DNA of 64,000 bases from positions 930,001-994,000 of the forward strand of contig WIUZ02000014.1 of the NCBI GenBank assembly GCA_015956445.1, read 5' to 3'. Positions within the stretch are counted from its first letter, which is position 1. Every line of letters begins with the position of its first letter. Source of the DNA: Thelephora terrestris. Lineage: Eukaryota; Basidiomycota; Agaricomycetes; Thelephorales; Thelephoraceae. The translations under genes and the position numbers were made by a program. The notes below the pieces were generated by a model, which was given only the letters and a program-made list of their open reading frames with translations, was not told the DNA's origin and did not search any database. Below, in pieces: positions 1 to 52,882 of this stretch.

Positions 1-3000
1 CAACCATGACCCAACGACCTTTTCCCTGAGTTGGGTGAAGAACGATCTGGTAAATTCGGCAGGACTTCGCTGTTTCCCCGGAACCAGCCCCAACCCTCCA
101 ACTTTTGAGCAGCATTCCGAAGCGAAGATCCCAGAGTGACAAGACCCCATTCGCTGTCCCTACAATCAGCCACACCCGTTTTCGGTCAACGCATAAGCAA
201 GTGATGGCTCCGTAATGTCTAGGATTTTCCATTGTTTCCAGGACGTGCATCGTCCGCAGGTCCAATACCGAAATGAAACAATGGGTCGTGGCGTAGATGA
301 GATTGGATGCAGAGTCTTATCAAGTTGTAGGATCACAGTTACACACAGCACGCCACAAACGTGTGCGAACGTCCACAAGGTAAACAAAAAAAATTTCATC
401 AGTCCCCGGGAAAAAATACAGTTGCAGCTGCACGTGAAACAAAGGGGCAAAACATACCAGAGTTAAAATGCATCATGCACGTCACATATTCACCTACTTG
501 TTCAAGCCGATACTCCCTCACTGCCTGGAGCTTTCCGTACTTCGGCAGGGTCCCGGTTTGGCTGACGTTGACCCTAACGACGTGGATGCTCCCGTCCTCG
601 GCTGCGCTTGCAAAACAATGGACTCCTTCCAACATGCAAACGCATTTCACCTTCGCGTGATGCTGTGAATAGCTGTGCCTCGGTTTACTTGTGACGTTTC
701 GCTCCAATCGCGCAGTGTCCCACACTTTGACAGTCTTGTCATCAGATGCCGAGACGAAGAACATATGGTCGGGGGATACGGCGAGTCCCGTGATCGCATC
801 TGTGTGAGGGCTGAGATGCGCAATAAGATTTGCCTCCGGGCGCTTATGCGTCGCGTCGCGAGAAACGAAGCTGTGTCGGCCAGTGGCGCGGCGGCGGATC
901 GGCCCCTCGTGAACTTTCGGCCCGAAGTCGCCTTGCAGATCCTTGCTTCCGTCAAGGTACATGTGTTCCAGTAAGTGGATGACGCCGGGATCCATTCCAT
1001 CTATGGACGAAATTCAATAAAAAATCAAATGGGGATGAGCACAAATTTCTCTGCGCACCATAAGAGGAGATGGGTAATAAGCTGAGAGCCCGGGGTCTAG
1101 GCGGTATCCCTCTCAAAGTCCCACCGCCAGATATCGAAGTCGGGGAAGACCTTCCCGATCTTTCGGGGGAACCCTCAGACCTCATCTTTGACGCAGGCTC
1201 CAACAGACCGGTCGCATTCATTTTCGAGCTCCCAACCGCCGGCGCGGCTTTCTGATCGAAACTTCCCATGTGTATCCCGCGGACGGTGGTCCTTAGAACG
1301 GTAGAACCAGACGTTGAGAGAACGGACTCGGTAGGGCTTCCTGGTCTCTGCTGTAAACCTGCAACTTTTGGAGACACAATCGGCACTTTGTTGAGCTGGG
1401 AAGAAACCGGCGGCGTGGGCCGAGGATCTCGTAAGGCAGCATTCGTGGGAGGCATGACCAATGAATTCGCTGATCCATTTATCGTGGCCAATCTCCTACG
1501 CAGGTCTTCAAAGGGTGCGCCGCCGCCGGGTCCGTTGTCCACACTGGAAGCCCTGTGTGATCTTGGGGTTCCTGGGACTGGAGATTTCCCCGGATAACCC
1601 AGCGCTGACATGCGGCGACTACCATGTTGGGGCCTGGAACCGTCGGAACGGTGCCGGAGGAAAACCGTCTGTGGGACAATGCCTAGCTTTTGCAATTCAA
1701 TACCTATTACTGATTTCAACTGCTCTGATTCCGATTCAGTACTTGTACGGCTGGGGAAGCTAAGAAAAATTTCAGCGAAAACGAGAGAATCCCGATGCCG
1801 AACCAACTACCTCGAGATGGCTTGAGATAATTTCCAAATATAATCTCGCATTGCCAATAGTTTTGCCTCTTCATTCGGCGTCATCCCGAGTTGCTGTAGC
1901 TTCGCAAGTTGTACCTCATCCCTACGAAATTATTCACGTAAGATAGATGGGACACGGACATTCCTCTGTGACACGTACTCCTCAGACTTGCGTTGGATGA
2001 CGCCAGTAGACTTCTTCACTGCGGCGACACTATCCTTCGGTGATTGGGTGTCGCCTTTGTTGACACCTCGGCGATGTCCTTTCCAGAAAGTTGATTTGTC
2101 GGCTTTCATTGCCCATGTAACTGCGGCACTAAAAATGTGCCTTGGCATCTGCGGGGCGCCCGTCAACAAATAGCCATCCGCTTGCAAGTGGGATGATACA
2201 AACGGGGGGTTTCATGGTGGTTAGTAAAGTCACTTCGTCTATTTCCCGTATTTCTGACCGGAGTAAGTGCCGCAGGGAGGGGTACAAGATACACCACACG
2301 TCGCTGGGTGGAAGGCGTTTGCTTGCAGAAGCTAGAAACGCCGCTGCACCTACAAGCAAATGAGGCAAGTTGAGGCGTCAGGGTAACGTCTTGATGGAGG
2401 GACGCACTCTGTCTAATCCATATGTTCGGATGGTACAAAAACCCAAGGGTTGCCCCCATCAACTCCCAGAGCCGCATCTTCTGGAACAACCCCAGCTCGC
2501 AAAGGCTAGTCAATGATGACAGCACCTTCGCAACTGCGGATTCTTCGACATCTAAGAGGGACAGGTTTGGAATCAGTCTAAGAGTGTGGCCCAATTTTGC
2601 CTTACCGGAGAGCGCTTGTATCATTAGAGGCAAAATGTACTCTTCAAGACTCCTGCCACCAACACAGGCTGCCACATCCACGACGCTCTCGAAAAAAGCG
2701 TATCTTAATAGCCAGTCTCGGTGATTCATGTACGTGATCATATGGCTTAGGAGGACATCATTTGTCTTTTGCCGCCCGAGGAAGATACATAGCGAAGAGA
2801 TATTGTGCAGGACCGCTCGTTTGACGACTGGCGATGGATCTACCAGTAGCGTTGACAGATGATCCTCGACGCTCTCTTGAAGGTATTGAAGGCTGGTGTC
2901 ATAGGATATCTGTAAACAGAATAAACCTTTCGCCGAAACCGGAGTAAACCTGGACAAACCTCCACCTGTGCCTCATCGTAGTCTTGCGCGTCTGCGGAGA

Positions 3001-5105
3001 GCTTGAAAGCGCCATGGGCCTTTAACGCTTGTCCCATCTCCAAATACCGCAATGCAGTATCTGCAAAGGGGGCCATGCATTGCGCGTATATGCACCTCAC
3101 GGAGACCTCTGGGTCCCTCACGAGGTGTTCGATACTTGGGATGATATACTCCGGGAAAATCGCAGCGTTCGAAGGTGTTATAACTTTTACAAGCATGAGC
3201 TAGGAGGTGGGGTGAGCAAAATTGTTCAGGATGATCGCCTTCAATGGCACTTACAACTTGGAAAAGCGTCCGCAAGGCCGCAATTCGTACTATCGCGGCC
3301 TCATCGTATAATAAGTCGATGATGTATGGCACCATTCGATCCAGCTTCGCTTCGTCCGTCAGCCTTGGACAGAGTGCCAAGAATACGTCCAAAGCTCGGA
3401 CTTTTGAACTCGGCAACTGGCAATTTCTTATGTTCGCGGATACGAGTGAAAGCATAATGAGTGCTGGACCATCCTCTGATGATGCCCTTCGGCCCATCGG
3501 CAACTTTGGGTCATGGTTAGGTATGTTCAATTCCACAGGGAACACGTCCTGAATATTGCTTTAGAAGCCAGAAGTGCACGGACCGATGGTCTAGAGGTTA
3601 GGGGAACTGACCTGTGGGGGTACAGAGGGAGCAGGGGTAGATTCCACTTTGCTTTCAACGGACGAGCCCCCATTTGGATCCTGTTCCAGATACGTCTCTA
3701 CACTCTCGAAGTCCGACCAGATCCTCTCCATCCTATGATCTGAGTCACTTGGAAGGTTATTTTCTCCCTGGAGCTCTTGGGACATCGGTAGAGGGGCCCT
3801 ATGGGCTGGTTTAGGCACCTGTGAGATTTGGGTGGTGGTTGGGGTACCCGTAGCAGGAGGGGGAGGGGTAAGGAAAGGGCTTTTCTCTAACGACTCGCAC
3901 ACGGAATGAACGTAGTTGTGGAGAAAGGAGTAGAAACATTCTGGGAAAACGGTTTCTCGTGAAGTGTGGAGCAGCGCCTCAAACGTTGGCCGTGCAGTGT
4001 GGTCCAGAGAGATCATCTGTTTGATCAGCGTCTGTTGAATAACGATTAGACTCCAGTCGAACGCCAGCGAATTGTGCGACTGACCCGGACCCCCTCATCC
4101 TCTATTGGCACAAGGCTATGATCCACGTTGAACTCCGATTCGCGGTACTGAAAGAGTTGACTAAGTTTGAAAAGGGGCGCGCCTTCGAGAAAGAGCTCTG
4201 CGATGACACATCCCGCACTGAAGACATCCATAGCTTCAGTCACCCTACCATCCTTCTTGCCTTCAATATCCTCGCCTGCGCCGGCCAGTTTGTTCTTCTT
4301 GGCGCTAATCTCGGGGTTCTCACTTGCCGTGTAGAACCGTTCAGGTGCGATATAACAAGTTCGGCTTCCGGACGTGTCAAAGTAAAAGGAGAAATCGGAA
4401 GGGTCGTCGAGCGGAAGGTAAGTCGGTTTATAAGAAGCGAAGTCGGAGATGTACACCCAATTCCAAGAGGTAACAAGGACGTTTTCGCATTTAATATCTC
4501 CATGGGGTACCTTGCGGTTGCGAGTGTCACGAAGAGCTGTGAGTATTTGAAATGCGATCCATTTCTTCTCGATCGTTGAAAGGAAAGGTCGAGTGCTGTG
4601 TCGAGCCGTGAGTGATTGATTTGGATACTCTAAATGAGGTCCCACGTACCTGATGCGGTCATAAAGACTACTCGCAACCCACTGTCGGATCAGATAGCCA
4701 GCCTTCTCGGTCTCCACAAAGTTCTGATAACTGTACACATTCGCGATGTCCCCAAGAGACTCTCGCTCAACTTGATAACGCGCTCAATAACAGCGAAAGT
4801 CAGAAGCAATGTACGGTGGCTTACTCACTCTTCAATCTACGGTGAAACTTGCGTAGACTAACGCCAGGGTCTGGCTTGATGAATATCTTGACAACTAGTG
4901 GTCCGTTCCGATGTTGGCATCGCACCGTCTTGAGAAACCTGGCTGAACTCAAGCTAAGATCGAATGAAGATGTTAACGTTGTCTCAAGTGTAATGATACA
5001 AGCCCAAGCCGCCGACCTTCTCTCGTAAAGAATATCTGCCCCGAGATCACTCACGAAGGAGTCCAGAGCTCCACCTGTCCTCGTCAACGACTGAGCATTC
5101 CCCAT
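1..5105 (-). CDS. vps15: VPS15-type regulatory kinase of the class III PI3-kinase complex (3' end outside window)
   Basis: Scaffold pseudo-kinase that anchors and activates VPS34 for autophagy and endosomal sorting. Reading exons 5017-5105, 4829-4953, 4650-4770, 4085-4595, 3612-4031, 3255-3548, 2960-3199, 2408-2909, 2204-2349, 1979-2148, 1811-1921, 1059-1759, 458-1000 and <1-315 keeps one frame. The start MGNAQS is the family's N-myristoylation sequence. The kinase domain carries HGDIKCEN in place of HRD, DFA in place of DFG, and APERF; these departures are usual for VPS15. HEAT-like repeats follow, then a low-complexity Ser/Pro linker, then WD40 blades (SASDDKTVKVWD near 780). The last visible exon still reads as WD40 (GVLSLWDLRFG), so the C-terminus lies left of base 1. 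The intron at 316-457 is about twice the usual length here. Divergent from the secreted gene at 5525. Confidence 0.95.
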
Positions 5106-44044: not shown

Positions 44045-45468
44045 TTTCCGAACGTTGTACTAAGAAAAACAAAACATATGTATGCGAGATCAAATCGAGA
44101 GGGAAACGTGAAAAGTTCCGAAAGAGGTGAGAGGTCTATGAGTGCGCCAACTCTTGGTGGCGCCGTCAGAAAAACTGAAGGTAGACAAATGGCGCTGGTT
44201 ACTTCGTCGACGTTAGAATGTCTCCTTCTTTGCGGTTCCGCTACAATCACGGACACGGGAGCCCAAATGGACGACTTCGTCACAACTCTCGTCTCCGCCC
44301 ATGGGTCGCGCCTGAGGTACTTTTTTCACCGCTTGTTGATCTAGCCGCAGGCATTGGGTGATGTATGGGTTGGGATCAAAAGATTAGAACGGCATGTCAT
44401 CTGGATCAGACTTATGCACCTGGTGAGTTCTTGGCCAAAGATCAGTTCTGCAGTGAATTTACGAGTTCCAGGATTTGATCGGGGACTCGTTAACTGTCTA
44501 AAGCCACAGAACTGAATTTGCTCTACGTCACCCCCCTGGTAATTCGATTCGGAGAGTTCGAGTCTTTCCCACCCACCACGGCGGGAGTGATGAGGGTCGC
44601 GAACAAATGTAGTCCCACCCTGAGTCACAAAAATAAAATTTGTTGAGGATGTCTGGTGCGTGATTCAGATATCAAACACCCTGGGCGAATCTCACGAGGG
44701 ATCAGGTTGAAAGACAGGTCATCAAAGTGGGAGAAATGCGGAGAACGAGGGTAGAACTGGCACCATACGATTATACTTGATAAATTCCACGTTGGCGCAG
44801 GAAATGGCTTGCCCGTTTCTCGTTGCACCATAACTCCGCCGAATAAGACAAATCGACAAATTTCCTCGATTCGATGAGGGGCGAAGAGAGTTGAGGGTGC
44901 GGGAGACGTGATCAGATGGGACCCCAATGCCGCGGTTACTTCGGGGACATCGATCCGCGATGGCTACCTCTGGGGTGCCCGCGATCGCTGCTTCTAGAGC
45001 ACCCACATCTTACAAAGGGTGCGGCCTACAGAGGGAGCGGTACTAGTGTGAGTCACTAGGACGCACATTCGTGTAAGAGAAAGGCCAAGGAGGCGGCTTC
45101 GAAAGACCTGAACCCTCAGCGGGCGTCTAGCGTATCGCGTTCTGCGAGGAGTGCGGTGGCGTGTGGATAGGTACCGCACGATGACCAACTTCAGGATGCG
45201 TCTGGAGACCTTCCCCCTTCAACGATCTCCGCACCCGTTCGCTTACGACGACCACACGGCCGTCAACGTTCAGAGAAGTGGCGGTCGCATCCGCGAGACG
45301 TCGTTGAAGGACACGCCCAGCGACCCTCAGAAAATGGAGGCAAGGAAACTGCAGACGGGTGTTTTCCGCGCTTAGCGTTTGTTGGCCGAAGAAGCGAAAA
45401 ACGGCACGAGTCCCACGTGTCCGTCTTATCTGCTGCCACCACATCATCTACAACGAATCAACGACAAG
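44045..45468. other. Intergenic region before the NLR-type gene
   Basis: About 1.4 kb. Frames up to about 106 codons occur on both strands but overlap and have no recognisable family. I see no terminal repeats or RNA genes. Confidence 0.45.
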
Positions 45469-48400
45469 ATGGGTTTGCGAGATTTCCTCAGTATACCGAA
45501 AGGCCGTCGAGAGCGGAGCACAGCTAGGAGCGAGATGAGCCCCACCGAGGGCACAGGAGAAGTTGATCTGGCCCTGCCAAGTCTCACGACGGAATCAACT
45601 CCAGATCTTGAGATCGATGCCTCGTTTTCGACGGCTCCTGGTCCCTCTGCTGCTCGCGACCAGCGATCAAACGGTATGCAAACGACCTCTTCATAAATCG
45701 TCTATCTGACCGCTCTTCTCTGCTCGGTGCAGACCGCCGTTCCATTCCCGATCGATTTCGATCCATTCTCAACAGGGGATACAGCAAAGTCACAAAGTCC
45801 TTCAATGACACCGCATATCCCACGACAAAATTACTCCTCCGTGGGGTCAGAGACTGCGCAGATGCCTTTCCTCCGCTCAAGTCTGTCGCGGGAGGGCTCT
45901 GTTTCATCCTCGAAAATTGCGAGGTACGCACCTCCCCCTGCATCTGCTATTTACGTCTCTCAGAAACGCGCCAGAAAACAACAGCAAATAAGCAATCAAT
46001 AGAATCATTAGAGCCCCGAATCCGTGCGCTCGCTGGGTCACTCTGTGCGCCTGCTCTCAAGGGTGACACTGAAGAGCAATCAAGGAGAAATGATCTCGAA
46101 CGGTTAGACCATGCCCTACAATACCAGGTGCCAGCTCCTCTGACATGCGCTCACTAGGAAACTACGAGCCGTTAGTCAAGGTCTGGACCAGATGGCAAAA
46201 CAAGGGAACATCGAAGGCTTTTTTAGCAACCTCGAGAACGCCGAGAGGCTTAACGGACTGGTTGAGGACATCCGCAATGCAATGTTGGATTATCAGGTAT
46301 GTCTTGAAGATGCACCACCCGCACCTCTGACGTTTGCTTTAGACTTCTCTACAGCAAGATATCTATAACAAGAATTGTCAGCTTATTGTGCGCCCCACCC
46401 CCATGCTTTTACCCCCACAGACTAACCAATGGATAGGAATCTGCAGACCTTGCCATTCTTGACAGGATGTATCACACCCCAGATGCTGGATACCGCTATG
46501 GAAACAGGCAGGGATGCTTGAGGGGGACAAGGCAGGATGTCCTTGGGGAAATTGAACATTGGTTGATAAACAACAAAGACCAACGTGTTTTTTGGCTGAG
46601 CGGCTTGGCCGGAACCGGAAAATCTACCATCGCACAAACGTTCGCTGAAACAAGTTTTGCGGATGGAAAGCTTGGGGCAAGCTTCTTCTGTTCACGAGAC
46701 TTTGTGGACCGGAGCAATCTTCAGATGATCCTCCCGACCCTTGCTTTCCAGCTTGCCTACAAGTACCCCCATTTCCGTCAGCAGTTGCTACGGGTCTTGA
46801 AGGCAACACCCCATGTTGGACAGGAGTCCCTCTGCTCACAGATGGAGAACCTCATTGTCAGTCCACTCAAGGCTGCCTCCATCTCAATCCTCATCATCAT
46901 TGATGCCCTTGACGAGTGCAAGGATACAGAACCTGCATCTGCCATCCTTTCCATGCTCTCACGCTACACTGATAAAATACCCAATGTCAAATTCTTCATC
47001 ACTGGACGTCCTGAACCCCCCATCCGCTCTGGGTTCCGTCTCAAACCACTCCGCCCTATCACAGAAGTCCTCAGGCTCCATGATGTAGAACGATCATCTG
47101 TTGATGCAGATATCAAACTGTATCTCAGGAGTCAGTTAGCCAAGATTGTTGGGGCAAGGAGCGACTGCAACTTGACAAAGGAATGGCCAAGTTCAGATGA
47201 CCTCGATATTCTCTGCAAGAAGGCTGCTGGCCTGTTCATCTATGCCTCAACAGTTGTCAAATTTGTTGAATCCCCAAAACACCTTCCCACTCAGAGGCTT
47301 ACCCTCATCGTCTCCTCCCCACAAAATACTTCCCAGGAAGGAAAGTCAGGTGTTGACCGCCTCTACACCCAAATCCTGGAGCAAGCTTCCCATGGTGTAG
47401 ATCCAAGTGAGGAGGATTTCTACTCTGGTTTCAAGACTGTCCTTGGAACAGTGGTGCTGGTGTTCAACCCTCTCTCAGTGGGAGCACTTTCAGACCTCCT
47501 CCAAATGTCCAACATCCCTACTACCCTCCGCTCCCTCCACTCCCTCCTCCTTGTACCAGACCCAGAGAAGACATCAGACCCGGTCCAAGCCTTTCACAAG
47601 TCATTTCCTGACTTCCTCACAGATACCAACCGGTGTGGGGACAAATGGTTTTTTGTGAAGCCAAAGGTCCACCATGCAAAAATTTTGCTGTCATGCCTGA
47701 GGTTGATGAAGAAAAGGTTAAAGAGAAACATCTGTGATCTTGAAGACCATATGGTTTTTAATAAGGTGGAGGACTTTTCCACCCAAAAAAGCAATAAAAT
47801 TGGAGATGCCCTAGAATATGCCTGCCACTTTTGGACCAAGCACCTTCTGGAGATCCCTGGAAGCAGCCCCCACGCCAAGGAAATAGCAGAGGGTATAGAT
47901 GGATTCTCTACAACAAGCTTGTTGTATTGGATTGAGGTCCTTGCGCTTACAGGAAAACTTGGTGTTGGAGTTTATGCCATGAATGATGTTGAGCAATGGT
48001 GTGCTTTGGTGAGTGCTACTTAAACCAATTACTGAGACCCATAATAATGGTTGTTTAGGCAGGAGTTATGTGCAAGTGGACAAATGACACCCAACGCTTC
48101 CTGTTGGAACACTTTGATGCAATCAATGACTCTCCTTCCAATATATACCATTATGCCCTCCCATTTTCTCCTCCCTCATCATGGCTTCAAAAGTGCTACA
48201 GTGCAGAACTCTCAAATGAAGTCAAGGTGGTCAGAGGAGTTCCACTTGGGTGGGGAACATGTTCTCGAACTGTTGCTTTTGTTAGTAACCCACGGTCCAT
48301 CTCGCACTGGAACAACACTGTTGCAGTTGGCCTAGCATCTGGGGATATCATTATCTTGGATGCAGTTACTGGCAGCCAAACTGCTGTTCTTTCTGGTCAC

Positions 48401-49885
48401 ACTGATTGGGTTGGAACTTCCACCTTCTCATCAGATGGGATGTTTTTTGTCTCTGGAAGTAATGACAAAACTGTCAAACTCTGGGATGTGCAAACTGGTG
48501 GAGTCATCAAGACATTTCATGGTCACAAATCTTATGTCATGTCTGTTTCCATCTCAAAAAACTCTGCTATGATTGCCTCAGGGGATCGTTTGGGAACAAT
48601 CTTCTTGTGGAACAATCAGACAGGGGAACACACCTGTATCTTTGAGCAAGAATATAGTATAAACTGTGTCACCTTCTCTCCAACAACCCCCCAACACCTC
48701 ATATCTGTATCAGGAGGCAAGATCTGGCAGTGGGACATCAATGACCATCAAATTGGCCCAGCATATGATGGTTCTTGCATCACATTCTCCCCAGATGGTG
48801 TTCAATCTGTTTTGTGCAATGGAGATGCAGTCACAGTCCAACACTCTGATACTAGAGTGACTGTAGCTGAATTCTCTGTGGCTAGTGGAAACATTCAAAG
48901 ATGCTGTTTCTCCCCTGACAGCAGGCTTGTTGCAGTTGCTACTTGGCGTATGATCTATGTCTGGAGTACCACCAGCCCAGATTCTCACCCCATTGAACAA
49001 TTCACCACACCATCTGAGATTTGGGGCATTGTATTCTGTTCTCCCTCCACTGTGATCTCAGCATCCTCGGATAAATCAGTCAGGTTTTGGCAGATTGGTG
49101 TTCCACAAACAGACCCAGTAGTCTCTGATCAAAAGTCCACTCCACCTGCTTCAGCTTCAATCAAGTCTATCAGTCTGAACCCAGGGAATGGGATTGTTAT
49201 CTCAAGTGAAGATGATGGGGTAGTAAAGACCTGGGATATCTTGACTGGCCTCTGCAAAGCATCCTTCCAGACCCCAGCTAGTGATAACTTGAGAGATGTC
49301 CAGCTGACAGATGGGAAGCTAATCATGGTTTGGCATGAGAGTGGGAAGATTCACATCTGGGAAACTGAGAAAGCTGAACTCCTACAAACAGTAGAGGTCC
49401 CAAGGTGCAACAGCCTCAGGATATCAGGGGATGGGTCAAAGGTCCTTTGTCTGAGTAATCACACTGTCATTGAAGTGTGGTCAATATGGACAGGAGAGGG
49501 CATGGGCAAAGTTGAGTTGGAAGAGTGGGCATATGGAAATTTCTTCTATTTGGATGGCTCAAAAATCTGGATTGAACTTTGGGGTTCTTCCATCCAAGGG
49601 TGGGACTTTGAAATCTCAGGCTCCTCCCCAGCCCCACTGCCCAACACACCCATAGAGGACTCTTGTCTGCAATTCACCAGAAACCCCCCTCGGATTACAA
49701 ACAAAATCACTGGAAAAGTGGTTTTCCAACTGTTTGGGAGGTATGCAAAACCTAGGGTGGCACAGTGGGATGGACAATATCTGGTTGCTGGCTATGAAAC
49801 TGGAGAGGTTTTGATCTTGGAGTTCTGTCATCTGTATCCTCAGAAAGAATCTATAGTGTATTGTCTCTGTGACCGGTGTCTATAG
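45469..49885 (+). CDS. NACHT-WD40 NLR-like STAND protein
   Basis: Exons 45469-45673, 45733-45923, 45975-46102, 46158-46296, 46343-46387, 46437-48008 and 48059-49885 give 1368 residues. Residues 1-236 are an N-terminal helical domain with AFPPLKSVAGGLCFILENC and NIEGFFSNLENAERLNGLVE, found on many Agaricomycete STAND proteins. The NACHT ATPase follows: Walker A GLAGTGKST (about residue 292), Walker B LIIIDALDECKD (about 385), FFITGRPEPPIR sensor. The C-terminus (from about 770) is a series of about ten WD40 blades (SGSNDKTVKLWDVQTG, SASSDKSVRFWQ, SSEDDGVVKTWDILTG). Such proteins are candidate sensors for non-self recognition and cell death in fungi. The 3' part is strikingly poor in CpG while the 5' exons are not. 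Exon 3's donor (GTTAGA) is weak but alone restores the frame. Confidence 0.88.
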
Positions 49886-50548
49886 CTTTGTCTTCCTCTC
49901 TGGTATGAATGTGTCTTACACAGGAAGGGGTGCAAATGCAATGTGGTCTAACTGTCATCTTTGTCAGTCTGGGAAAGACTAAATAAACCATAAGTTTAGT
50001 GTTATCATGGCCAGCCAAATTCATCACATTGGACAAGGGGTAAGATGGTCGAGGATTGGCACCCTGAACCATATTCCATTCAGCCCCGCTTGACAAACTG
50101 GTGATATGTATCTTGATATCTATCAACCCTTATGGCACACCCAACGTCCCTCCCAGGAACTAATCACAATGACTTGAGGAGCTTGGTTGTTCAATACAGT
50201 TGATCAGATATGCCCTGTGGATTTTAGGCTCATTCCATTGAGACACCCTTTGAAAGAAAGGGAAATTATTCACCTTAATTTTGGAACAAACAGATCCATG
50301 TGTCTGAGGTATTATATCAACACGACACACTTTAGTCCACCAAGGAAACTGCCTGCCGCGTTCAGAATGACCTCACTCATCACTTCCAGCAAGATTGGTC
50401 GGTCTTGGCTACCTGCTCCACTGGGAGTCATCAAAACCCAAGGCACCCCGCTCAACTGAAGCCTGTGAACTGGTAACTTATGCTTGGAATTCTCATGTAG
50501 GCCAACAGTACGGTCATCGAACACAAGGCTCAAATAATTGTGTTAGAT
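49886..50548. other. Intergenic region, convergent ends of NLR-type gene and UVE1
   Basis: About 0.66 kb. The AT-rich, CpG-poor composition of the NLR 3' half continues to about 50330 and then returns to the window norm near 50350. No gene seen. Confidence 0.5.
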
Positions 50549-52882
50549 CTAGGAGTCCGTCTTTCTCCTTTTCCTCCCCTTCTTCACTTGAAATGAATCG
50601 GTTTCCCCGCTCGCCTGAACGCCCGCAGCGGGTTTCTTCCCCTTCCGCGAGACTTCCGATCCGCCAAATTCCACATCTTTGACCGGCTCTTTCTTCTTCC
50701 TTCGATTCCTCCTTGCAGGCATCATCTGCTGCTGTTCTTCAGCGCCACCATCTGGTGCGGGGCTTAGAGCGTTCGGCTCGAGCAACAGGTTACCCCTGTC
50801 ACCCTCAGTCTCCACGACGTGTCCCGTCTCGGCAACCGCGAGTTCTGTTGACTCAATGACATCCTTTTTGACCTTCTTTCGCCTTGGTTTTTTCGTCTCG
50901 TACTCAGCACCCCCCGGGGCTTCGTCGTGGTCGGGATCCAGTTTATATGACTTCCTCTTGCCGCCCAACTTTTGAGTTTCTTGACTCTTCTCCGGCCTTA
51001 GGTTCTCGTGGGCCACTTCCTCGAGTTGATAGATCCTATACAGATGGAGCACGGCCTGTTCCTTATCCTTCGCCTCGAGTATCTCAGTTAATCGTGCGAC
51101 ACTCATAACATTTACAAACTTCGACCAACCTCGATCATGAGATCCATATCTTCAGGAAGCTCCTGTGGTAATTCGTAGCATCTGTCTGCGTGAGCACGTT
51201 TTTCCATAATTGTCTCTGCGCCAGGACGTGGGGAACTGAGATGTTGTTTGGGTTTGATGCCCTTGCGGTCCCAGATTGCATTGATGCGGGGAATGAGCTC
51301 GCGCAGCGGTAGGATCGAAGGCTGCACGGCGAGAACGTTAGTTATCCGCAACCCTCTGGAATGTTTAGCATACTTTTATCCAATTGTGGTGATAATCAAA
51401 CTTGCGTTCGTTTCAGTAACGCTCACGTGTGCAGCTCGGTAGAGTGCTCACGACTAGGGGAATATCAAGTTCCTCACAAACCGGCAGTAGGTCGTCAGCG
51501 CTGTAACACATCTCATCATATTGTGAATGTGGAAAGCGGTGATCTCTGAAGAGAGCTCACTTCATCGTTCTCCAAGACCAATCGTTCTCGGATCTCGCCT
51601 GTCAGTTTCATCTGATAATTTTCCCTGAATCGTTCAAGCGTCGCGGCTTTATTACCATACATACCCTGAGCGGAACATTTGAGCATCTGTTTCGAGCGAA
51701 GTATAGGTCCGTACCCCCATGTGAATTATCATCACGCTATCCTTCCCCATCCCCATGTATTGTAGCATGGAACAGTGGTCTGCGCGGGTTAGGTTGAGTT
51801 TAGTAAGCGGAAAACACTCGGTAATGGAATATAAATGTAGCATACAATGCAATTCCCGGACAGAGGCCTCGACGACGTTCTCCTTGGGGCTCCCGATTTG
51901 GGTGAACTGCCCAGGGTGGAGCGTGATCCGGTGACCATATCGATTAGCAAGATCTCCCGCCGCCTTGACGGAGGAGTCAGTACATGATGCCGCTTGGGTG
52001 GCACCCTGACCTTCAACTCAGTAGCCGCATAATCAAGGGAATATCCGTATTTCGCGTGGGAGGCAAAAGGAAACATCTCCGAGGAGAGGCGCAAGAAACG
52101 AATCCTGGTGGTGATCACATAAGGGAATGTAATTCAACGGAATGCGAGATCGTACTTGTTTTCTTCGTTCCACTGCATGACAAAGATCAGTACAACTCAA
52201 CTGGGGGATCAGGCCGTTGAACGCACTTGTATAAGCTTACACAAATCTCGAGCGTTCTGAAGGCCGAGATTCTTTGCGAAATCCAAGCCGTTCTTCTCGA
52301 TCGTATCAATGCGGCAGGTTCTGTAGCAGCATTGTCAAAGAAAATACGTAGCACGAGACCACGTATGGCCTACCTGCTACAGAATATGGGGTTCGGTTTC
52401 GCGGTGCGCAAAATGGTATTTAGGCAGGCCTAAAGTTTGAACGGTCAAATGGCGGGGCGAGTAACTTGAACCTTGTGGAACGTACGTATCCCAAGCGGCC
52501 TGGGCAATTACTTGTGAACTCGTGATCAGATTCGTATTGAGACTCAATCCATACCTTTGAACGTGGCCGTCTTCGTTTCCACGGGCGGAATATCGTATAC
52601 AACAGGTTCTATAACTTTCACCGTCCTTTTCCGCTTCTTCTTCGGCGCAGGCTCAGCCATTTCCTCGGGTTCGAGGTCAGTTAATGGGCTTTCAGTGCCC
52701 AAGTCCGCGGGTTCTTCATGTTCCTCGATAGTCACTTGGCTAGAGTAGTTCACGACGGTTCGCGTGCGGCTAGATCTCCTTGGCGCAACCTCGAACTTCC
52801 CCGTAGTGGCTCTCGCGAAATGCGGCATGCAAAATAGAAACGTCGATGGGACACGTAGGCGTAGGAGAGAAAGGGGCAACAT
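50549..52882 (-). CDS. uve1: UV-damage endonuclease UVE1/UvdE
   Basis: Nicks DNA 5' of UV photoproducts and other lesions, starting alternative excision repair. Thirteen exons (52555-52882, 52486-52499, 52374-52429, 52227-52320, 52156-52172, 52011-52104, 51846-51963, 51715-51779, 51561-51665, 51452-51511, 51374-51400, 51130-51321, 50549-51073) give 564 residues. Catalytic TIM-barrel signatures: RLGYACLNTILR, RFLRLSSEMFPFASHAKYGY, HRITLHPGQFTQIGSP, YHCSMLQYMGMGKDSVMIIH, GGMYGNKAATLERFRENY, RLVLENDE, FDYHHNWIK, HLSSPRPGAE and HADRCYELP. The N-terminus MLPLSLLRLRVPSTFLFCMP resembles a mitochondrial presequence. The C-terminal 130 residues are Lys/Arg-rich with nuclear-signal-like KKGRKRRK. Exons 2 (14 nt) and 5 (17 nt) are microexons. 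Confidence 0.95.

Follow-up and report, generated by a model that had tools for sequence, protein, structure and literature searches.

The stretch analysed here, 64,000 nucleotides of Thelephora terrestris DNA (assembly GCA_015956445.1, contig WIUZ02000014.1, forward-strand positions 930,001 to 994,000; hereafter the window, whose own coordinates are used below), carries at 45-50 kb an intact NACHT-WD40 receptor gene of the NLR type from whose body CpG dinucleotides have almost vanished. The promoter side and the 5' exons of this gene have an ordinary CpG frequency; the desert takes in the rear two-thirds of the gene and extends through its 3' noncoding end. The explanation favoured here, at a probability of about 0.72, is a persistent, symmetric CpG methylation of the gene-body type, which would spare the 5' end of the gene and under which the gene itself stays intact.

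The CpG desert and the gene that carries it

The depletion is real and strong. Between 47250 and 50340 there are 20 CpGs, against a mean of 160.6 and a minimum of 123 in 2000 mononucleotide shuffles, and among segments of that size starting elsewhere in the 64-kb stretch than at 44-51 kb the poorest has 178. In 500-base bins the CpG observed/expected ratio (o/e) is 1.04-1.28 at 43.0-46.0 kb (1.05 at 45.5-46.0 kb), takes the values 0.64, 0.49, 0.29, 0.19, 0.16, 0.08, 0.04, 0.08 and 0.31 in the nine bins from 46.0 kb, and is back to 1.04 from 50.5 kb; elsewhere in the 64 kb every 500-base bin reaches at least 0.58. The ratio is not flat across 46-51 kb, the profile running from 0.64 to 0.04 and then to 1.04. 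In the same nine CpG-poor bins (46.0-50.5 kb) GpC o/e is 0.54-1.06 against a window mean of 0.86, so that the drop in GpC is modest, and TpG+CpA is 1.21-1.64 against a window mean of 1.07, which bears out the TG/CA enrichment claimed in an earlier, sequence-only reading of this DNA. The counts given there, three CG in 48361-49680 and six in 50581-50640, proved exact on recounting. G+C is 0.45-0.47 at 47.5-50.5 kb versus 0.52 in the whole window.

Where that reading placed the start of the change, near 47.2 kb, depletion is indeed strong, but the fall begins at about 46.0 kb and is gradual: a 5' gradient (46001..47100, no strand) takes o/e from 0.64 down to about 0.3, recurs in the corresponding position of those copies that extend so far, and leads into the desert proper (47101..50322, no strand), where CpG is lowest from 47.1 kb and the window copy has 0-0.25 per bin. 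The end, claimed at about 50.33 kb past the stop codon, lies near 50.32 kb and is sharp, CpGs at 50087 and 50145 being followed by those at 50323, 50357, 50359 and 50400. The CpG-poor 3' noncoding end occupies 49886..50322 (no strand), and homology of the window to other copies ceases at about 50310.

The gene lies on the plus strand. Its probable first coding exon (45470..45673; ATG at 45470, GT at 45674) has start and splice sites predicted from the sequence, and CpG o/e is 1.14 at 45400-45835, in keeping with the ordinary CpG content previously ascribed to the 5' exons. Both large exons are open. The NACHT exon (46437..48008, 524 codons) scores above the cut-offs for both NPHP3_N (Pfam, E 2.2e-29) and NACHT (E 6.1e-8), as a NACHT/NOD ATPase domain should. 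A GT-AG intron of 50 bases read from the sequence (48009..48058), with no CpG columns at 48010-48058 in the aligned copies, separates it from the WD40 exon (48059..49885 including the stop), the sensor half of the protein, for which a Pfam WD40 match (E 1.1e-29) and a propeller-like strand order in the predicted model agree on a WD40 propeller. For an N-terminal domain, the open frame 45612-46154, which runs through introns, matched no Pfam family. A search of solved structures with the NACHT exon gave no match.

Copies of the gene in the genome

A search of the 40.6-Mb genome (60 contigs) with 47300-50300 as query gave at least 44 matches (40 of 62 candidates scored), in which at least 19 places, the window included, reach 80% identity over 2.4 kb or more; the region is multicopy, as had been supposed. 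Twenty further copies were compared, namely the other 18 of the 80% group and two at 74%. The profile of the window is present in these 20 fetched copies, on nine contigs, within the parts present in each: CpG o/e never exceeds 0.41 in homologous bins at 47.7-49.8 kb in the 21 sequences, and is 0.76-1.13 at 45835-46200 in all 17 sequences reaching there. L021 and L025 have no homologous 5' part. In 18 of the 20 copies the NACHT and WD40 exons are free of stops and intact in frame in the parts present (tblastn), so that the methylation-driven decay proposed earlier is wrong for the coding sequence; the other two, L023 and L024, nearly duplicate L014 and are truncated where their contigs end. 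Codon mapping gave four in-frame stops, three of which sit one or two codons before the stop of the window; the fourth, in L028, does not appear in the tblastn alignment and probably arose as an artefact of a gap in the mapping. The median pairwise ratio of nonsynonymous to synonymous divergence (dN/dS) is 0.16 at 46437-47099 (132 pairs), 0.33 at 47100-48008 (168 pairs) and 0.63 in the WD40 exon (171 pairs).

That the 3' CpG edge is simply where the repeat ends would suit the window copy, but it does not hold for most other close copies: their common flanks extend for more than 2.5 kb at normal CpG, in several copies from about +0.4-0.5 kb. A subtelomeric location is likewise unproven: for 17 of the 19 close copies the nearest contig end is no more than 200 kb away, but a search for telomere repeats found no array on contigs C6, C25 and C34, which hold 13 of the 19. 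Two copies carry insertions shortly 3' of the stop, of about 2.3 kb in L010 (6258-8566; at 50102-50105 of the window unit) and about 2.9 kb in L019 (raw 539-3465; at 49986-49990), whose joints overlap by 4 and 5 bases and may be target-site duplications. In the remoter copies L026 (6300-8700) and L028 (6000-8250; oriented coordinates in both) low CpG extends about 2.3 kb past the 3' end, without long frames; these tails are perhaps relics of older units.

The pattern of mutation

Retention of CG and GC was counted over pairs of 14 copies, with L010 and L019 (long insertions), L023 and L024 (duplicates) and the remoter L026-L028 excluded. Within the desert a CG in one copy is retained in another in 28-30% of comparisons, versus 78-82% for GC, and in the CpG-normal 5' parts the figures are 60-63% and 68-81%, respectively. 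In the WD40 exon CG is replaced by TG at 0.24 and by CA at 0.19 (14 copies); both replacements are frequent, so CpG has been lost on both strands. Among 17 copies, 76 WD40 columns have any CpG, and in 49 it is confined to a single copy, which implies that new CpGs appear and vanish. The four NCG contexts stand about equally, each at 0.07-0.11 of expected, and TCG is not preferred across the 18 sequences concerned. Codon choice follows the next base: in the WD40 exon, pooled over copies, codons ending in C or T use C in 60% of cases before a base other than G and in 3.0% before G, and in the window copy third-position C precedes G in 0 of 95. That exon has 9 CpGs in the window, against a mean of 53.6 and a minimum of 40 in 1000 synonymous-codon shuffles; the intron and the 3' noncoding DNA are depleted as well. 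As read from the aligned copies, the pattern bears the marks of methyl-CpG deamination under protein-level selection. The desert of the window, with TpA/ApT of 0.52 and (CpA+TpG)/(ApC+GpT) of 1.55, is the reverse of what repeat-induced point mutation (RIP) leaves behind, and the high TpA/ApT, loss of CpA/TpG and stops typical of RIP were not seen.

Exchange and diversity in the sensor half

Two clades of copies are 69-83% alike at 45.8-47.0 kb and 86-94% alike beyond, matching the likeness within clades, and a third clade differs up to about 47.6 kb. Between L017 and L020 there is 1 difference in 1158 sites of the 5' half, but the WD40 exon has 206 in 1826. Within ten close pairs, 58-82% of the differences between the WD40 exons involve states present in other copies (14 copies), and four-gamete conflict, which stays level at 0.24-0.28 throughout the 5' part, climbs with distance in the WD40 exon from 0.26 to about 0.5 (14 copies). 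These observations argue for exchange between copies and point to the WD40 half as the part exchanged; the CpG-empty half is thus also the half that moves between copies. Along 46437-49882 the median synonymous divergence (dS) of close copies is 0.63, 0.33 and 0.16, a fall that is expected if the clades keep 5' halves of their own and draw their 3' halves from one shared pool.

The same half is diversified. In 16 copies, 45 WD40 codons show five or more amino acids, and 70 pairs of such hypervariable codons are 17-22 or 39-43 apart, where gap shuffles give 43.1 and match the observed number in 23 of 5000 runs (last three codons omitted); their spacing follows the WD40 period. The predicted propeller has a mean predicted local distance difference test score (pLDDT) of 71.4, with 24 of the 28 ten-residue blocks of residues 71-350 at 80-97 and weaker values beyond residue 350, and its strands were lettered by hand. 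Of the 35 hypervariable codons within 74-516 that lie on it, the loops of one face hold 27, those of the other face 1, and the strands the remaining 7, of which six are at the same end as the variable face. No array of near-identical internal repeats was found in the WD40 exon. Exchange together with one-face diversity makes these genes look like working recognition receptors, not relics.

Residual CpGs within codons lie in 15 of 44 hypervariable codons versus 17 of 563 other WD40 codons (p 1.6e-10; codons in at least 10 of 16 copies), and transition products of CpG co-occur in 17 of 27 cases versus 71 of 197 for other C/G transitions (p 0.011); the common descent of sites and of copies makes these p values approximate. 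Much of the first excess arises because arginine is common on the variable face: with arginine-holding sites only, residual CpG is found in 14 of 25 versus 8 of 35 (p 0.014), and looser thresholds give p 0.065 and 0.41.

Other depleted and CpG-normal genes

The sample of NLR genes beyond the 80% group comprised eight, four of which were represented by only 601 bases each. L035, L036, L047 and L049 are depleted, with CpG o/e of 0.36 or less past the transition, and L041, L042, L046 and L048 are CpG-normal (0.72-1.35). L035 and L042 are both remote relatives of the window gene (about 66%). L049 has no CpG in 601 bases and ten further copies at 83-98% (11 places, 83-100%); L036 has no paralogue above 75% and yet is depleted; L042, whose nearest paralogue is at 77%, is normal, and so are L041 and L048, with paralogues at 79-84% (L035, L046 and L047 were not used as separate queries in these paralogue searches). 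Ten reverse-transcriptase stretches gave o/e of 0.93-1.17 in seven and 0.42-0.64 in three.

A PF00145 profile search of the genome gave seven matches at four loci, a methyltransferase set of two DNMT1, one DNMT5 and one DNMT2. The DNMT5 locus (matches to 7r76_A, E 7.5e-76 and 6e-85) has CpG o/e of 1.04 and the locus that we take, from its motif, to be DNMT2-like has 0.91. The sampled bodies of the two DNMT1-like genes, on contigs C1 and C15, have 0-0.38. On C1 (984.1-988.1 and 988.7-989.7 kb; L034, L030, L053; 988081-988699, 619 bases, unread) o/e is 0.95-1.34 in the 5' part, 0.00-0.36 in the sampled body and 0.80-1.06 past the methylase domain. A DNMT1-RFD match lies upstream of the methylase domain on the same strand, with o/e of 0.95-1.34 toward the 5' end and 0.00 inward, and the two stretches probably belong to one gene. 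A 2.4-kb query from this gene has a single genomic match, itself, so that in a gene unrelated to the NLRs the anatomy of the window gene, normal at the 5' end, empty in the body and normal beyond, is repeated. The C15 gene (289.4-293.7 kb; L031, L033) was recognised by its PF00145 match. The suggestion that the C1 and C15 methylase fragments are decayed was rejected, as their frames show what we take to be the DNMT1 motifs, divided by apparent introns. The genome thus encodes CpG-maintenance enzymes, as the DNMT5 and DNMT1-RFD matches attest; a search for TET/JBP gave no match, and neither did its controls. That both DNMT1-type genes are CpG-emptied in their sampled bodies, and the DNMT5 and DNMT2-like loci normal, would mean that the presumed writer carries the mark.

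Elsewhere in the genome, inverted pairs of telomere-type arrays, (CCCTAA)n followed by (TTAGGG)n, were seen at 13 places, ten of them spaced 0.9-1.9 kb and three 4.0-8.9 kb (for example C1:3383656/3385319, C2:468281/469895 and C60:1504699/1506359), as if they were the ends of a mobile element.

Explanations for the CpG loss

On the explanation favoured here, methylation would spare the 5' end of the gene, roughly the first 0.5 kb fully and with protection fading out by about 1.6 kb, would cover the remaining gene through the 3' noncoding end, and would then stop. Methylated CpGs on either strand would mutate to TpG or CpA until few remained, while selection on the protein would keep the frame open by way of CpG-free codons (third-position T before G, NCA and AGR). 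The mark would be attached to certain genes and not to repeats as such: the NLR group on nine contigs, some other NLRs, and both DNMT1-type genes. It would be present in these bodies now or have been so formerly, would presumably be maintained by the DNMT1-RFD and DNMT5 enzymes, and would most likely serve conditional silencing. Several observations weigh against this. Half of the eight sampled NLRs are CpG-normal, and no predictor of which was found; the expected main target of fungal methylation has little footprint, seven of the ten reverse-transcriptase stretches being normal, though most of these elements may be young; and the C1 and C15 fragments are taken for whole working DNMT1 genes, with their ends, from motifs and one RFD match.

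The sequence-only reading had proposed methylation and deamination of a repeated sequence. CpG methylation with deamination, past or ongoing, has good support in the sequence, and the multicopy state stands, but the tie to repetition does not, since the C1 DNMT1-type gene is depleted with one match and L041 and L048 are normal with paralogues at 79-84%: repetition is neither necessary nor sufficient for the depletion, a simple 80%-identity threshold is broken by the same genes, and CpG loss inside a gene with a spared 5' end, independent of repeats, is displayed by both the window NLR and the C1 gene. It is unlikely, though less so than the other alternatives, that the methylation was triggered by repetition, as in the scheme resembling methylation induced premeiotically (MIP) proposed for multicopy genes of mushrooms, in which near-identical paralogues are methylated and silenced and CpG loss is a by-product. 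The 19 or more places of the window family at 80% identity or above, the L049 family (11 places at 83-100%, no CpG in 601 bases) and the normal state of L042 at 77% would suit it; the C1 gene, L041 and L048, the depletion of L036 with no paralogue above 75%, and the CpG-normal common flanks of more than 2.5 kb would not. RIP, a premeiotic hypermutation of duplicated DNA, is reported to have inactivated two NWD pseudogenes of Podospora (PMC1805685), and the present region is multicopy; it is nevertheless a very improbable cause, given 18 of 20 copies without stops or frame breaks, dinucleotide ratios in the opposite direction, no preference for TCG, an affected gene with one genomic match, and no RID-type gene recognised among the PF00145 matches, an assignment made partly from motifs.

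That selective pressure on codons or dinucleotides, and not mutation, emptied the region is also very improbable: the coding sequence is open and constrained, but depletion reaches the intron and the 3' noncoding DNA, spans codon boundaries and passes over the 5' exons of the same gene, and the 9 CpGs of the WD40 exon lie far under the synonymous-shuffle minimum of 40. The least credible source is an imported WD40/NACHT cassette of different base composition, also put forward earlier. The lower G+C and somewhat lower GpC inside the desert would be expected of it; the loss is largely CpG-specific, however, its 5' edge is a gradient within an exon, copies that are 74-92% identical show matching gradients in homologous positions, and the unrelated C1 gene has the same CpG shape. 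A bolder extension of gene-body methylation is that it is truly mosaic on intact genes, including NLR sensors and the organism's own DNMT1 writers, and also acts as a targeted mutator of the sensor half. CGN arginine codons reappearing on the recognition face would then turn into codons for Trp, Gln, Cys or His, and the products would be distributed over the repertoire as copies exchange sequence. We regard this as improbable as a whole, and the mutator step as suggestive only.

Comparison with known systems

In Coprinopsis cinerea about 890 genes are reported to be highly CG-methylated (PMC8889193). The depleted genes of T. terrestris resemble the methylated class of multicopy and orphan genes in Coprinopsis cinerea and Laccaria bicolor, in that a DNMT1 and DNMT5 set is present, a minority of genes is, or here presumably is, CpG-methylated and multicopy genes are over-represented (PMC8889193); the set of two DNMT1, one DNMT5 and one DNMT2 is tabulated also for Coprinopsis, Laccaria and Agaricus (PMC7862722). 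The difference is that modification and expression are described there, whereas here there is near-total loss of CpG in open, selected genes with the 5' part spared, and also in a DNMT1-type gene with a single match. Other basidiomycete genes in which CpG methylation was measured and linked to low expression are those of the rust Puccinia striiformis, with gene-body methylation of lower-expressed alleles (PMC12129025), and of Pleurotus (PMC5974365). The accessible text of neither reports a CpG desert, and in the rust the difference peaks near the start codon, which in the present genes belongs to the spared part (PMC12129025). Closer in anatomy is the mosaic gene-body methylation of invertebrates and plants, in which a subset of genes is affected in the body, the start-proximal part is spared and CpG o/e provides the readout (PMC6336885, PMC7862722); the same sources class fungi as ultra-low to weak, whereas the present pattern is fungal and its methylation is deduced from CpG loss alone. 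A literature search, which reached few subscription papers, found no fungus for which NLR or DNMT1 bodies emptied of CpG have been described.

As a receptor family, these genes are most like the HNWD/NWD genes of Podospora anserina, many-copy NACHT-WD40 receptors whose WD40 part is exchanged between copies (PMC1805685, PMC2873952). There, the variable sites of each repeat are on the top face, as two pairs of codons with a spacing of about 18, and an extra source of mutation has been proposed (PMC1805685, PMC2873952); the variable codons found here are at the same kind of positions (PMC2873952), so that WD40 exchange and top-face diversity are common to both. The present genes differ in having no near-identical internal repeats, and hence not the very high repeat identity of that family, in mutation of the CpG type and not RIP, in frames open in 18 of 20 copies, and in the N-terminal domain, for which no Pfam family was found. 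A recent review holds that gene-body methylation has been largely lost in fungi because of its mutational burden on coding sequence (PMC13297926). Here that burden would seem to have been paid almost in full, CpG being near zero over about 3 kb in genes that are still open and selected. This should enable a direct test of what maintains such a mark on a gene across long evolutionary time, and why, and would link an inherited DNA mark to the exchanged, diversified half of an immune receptor family.

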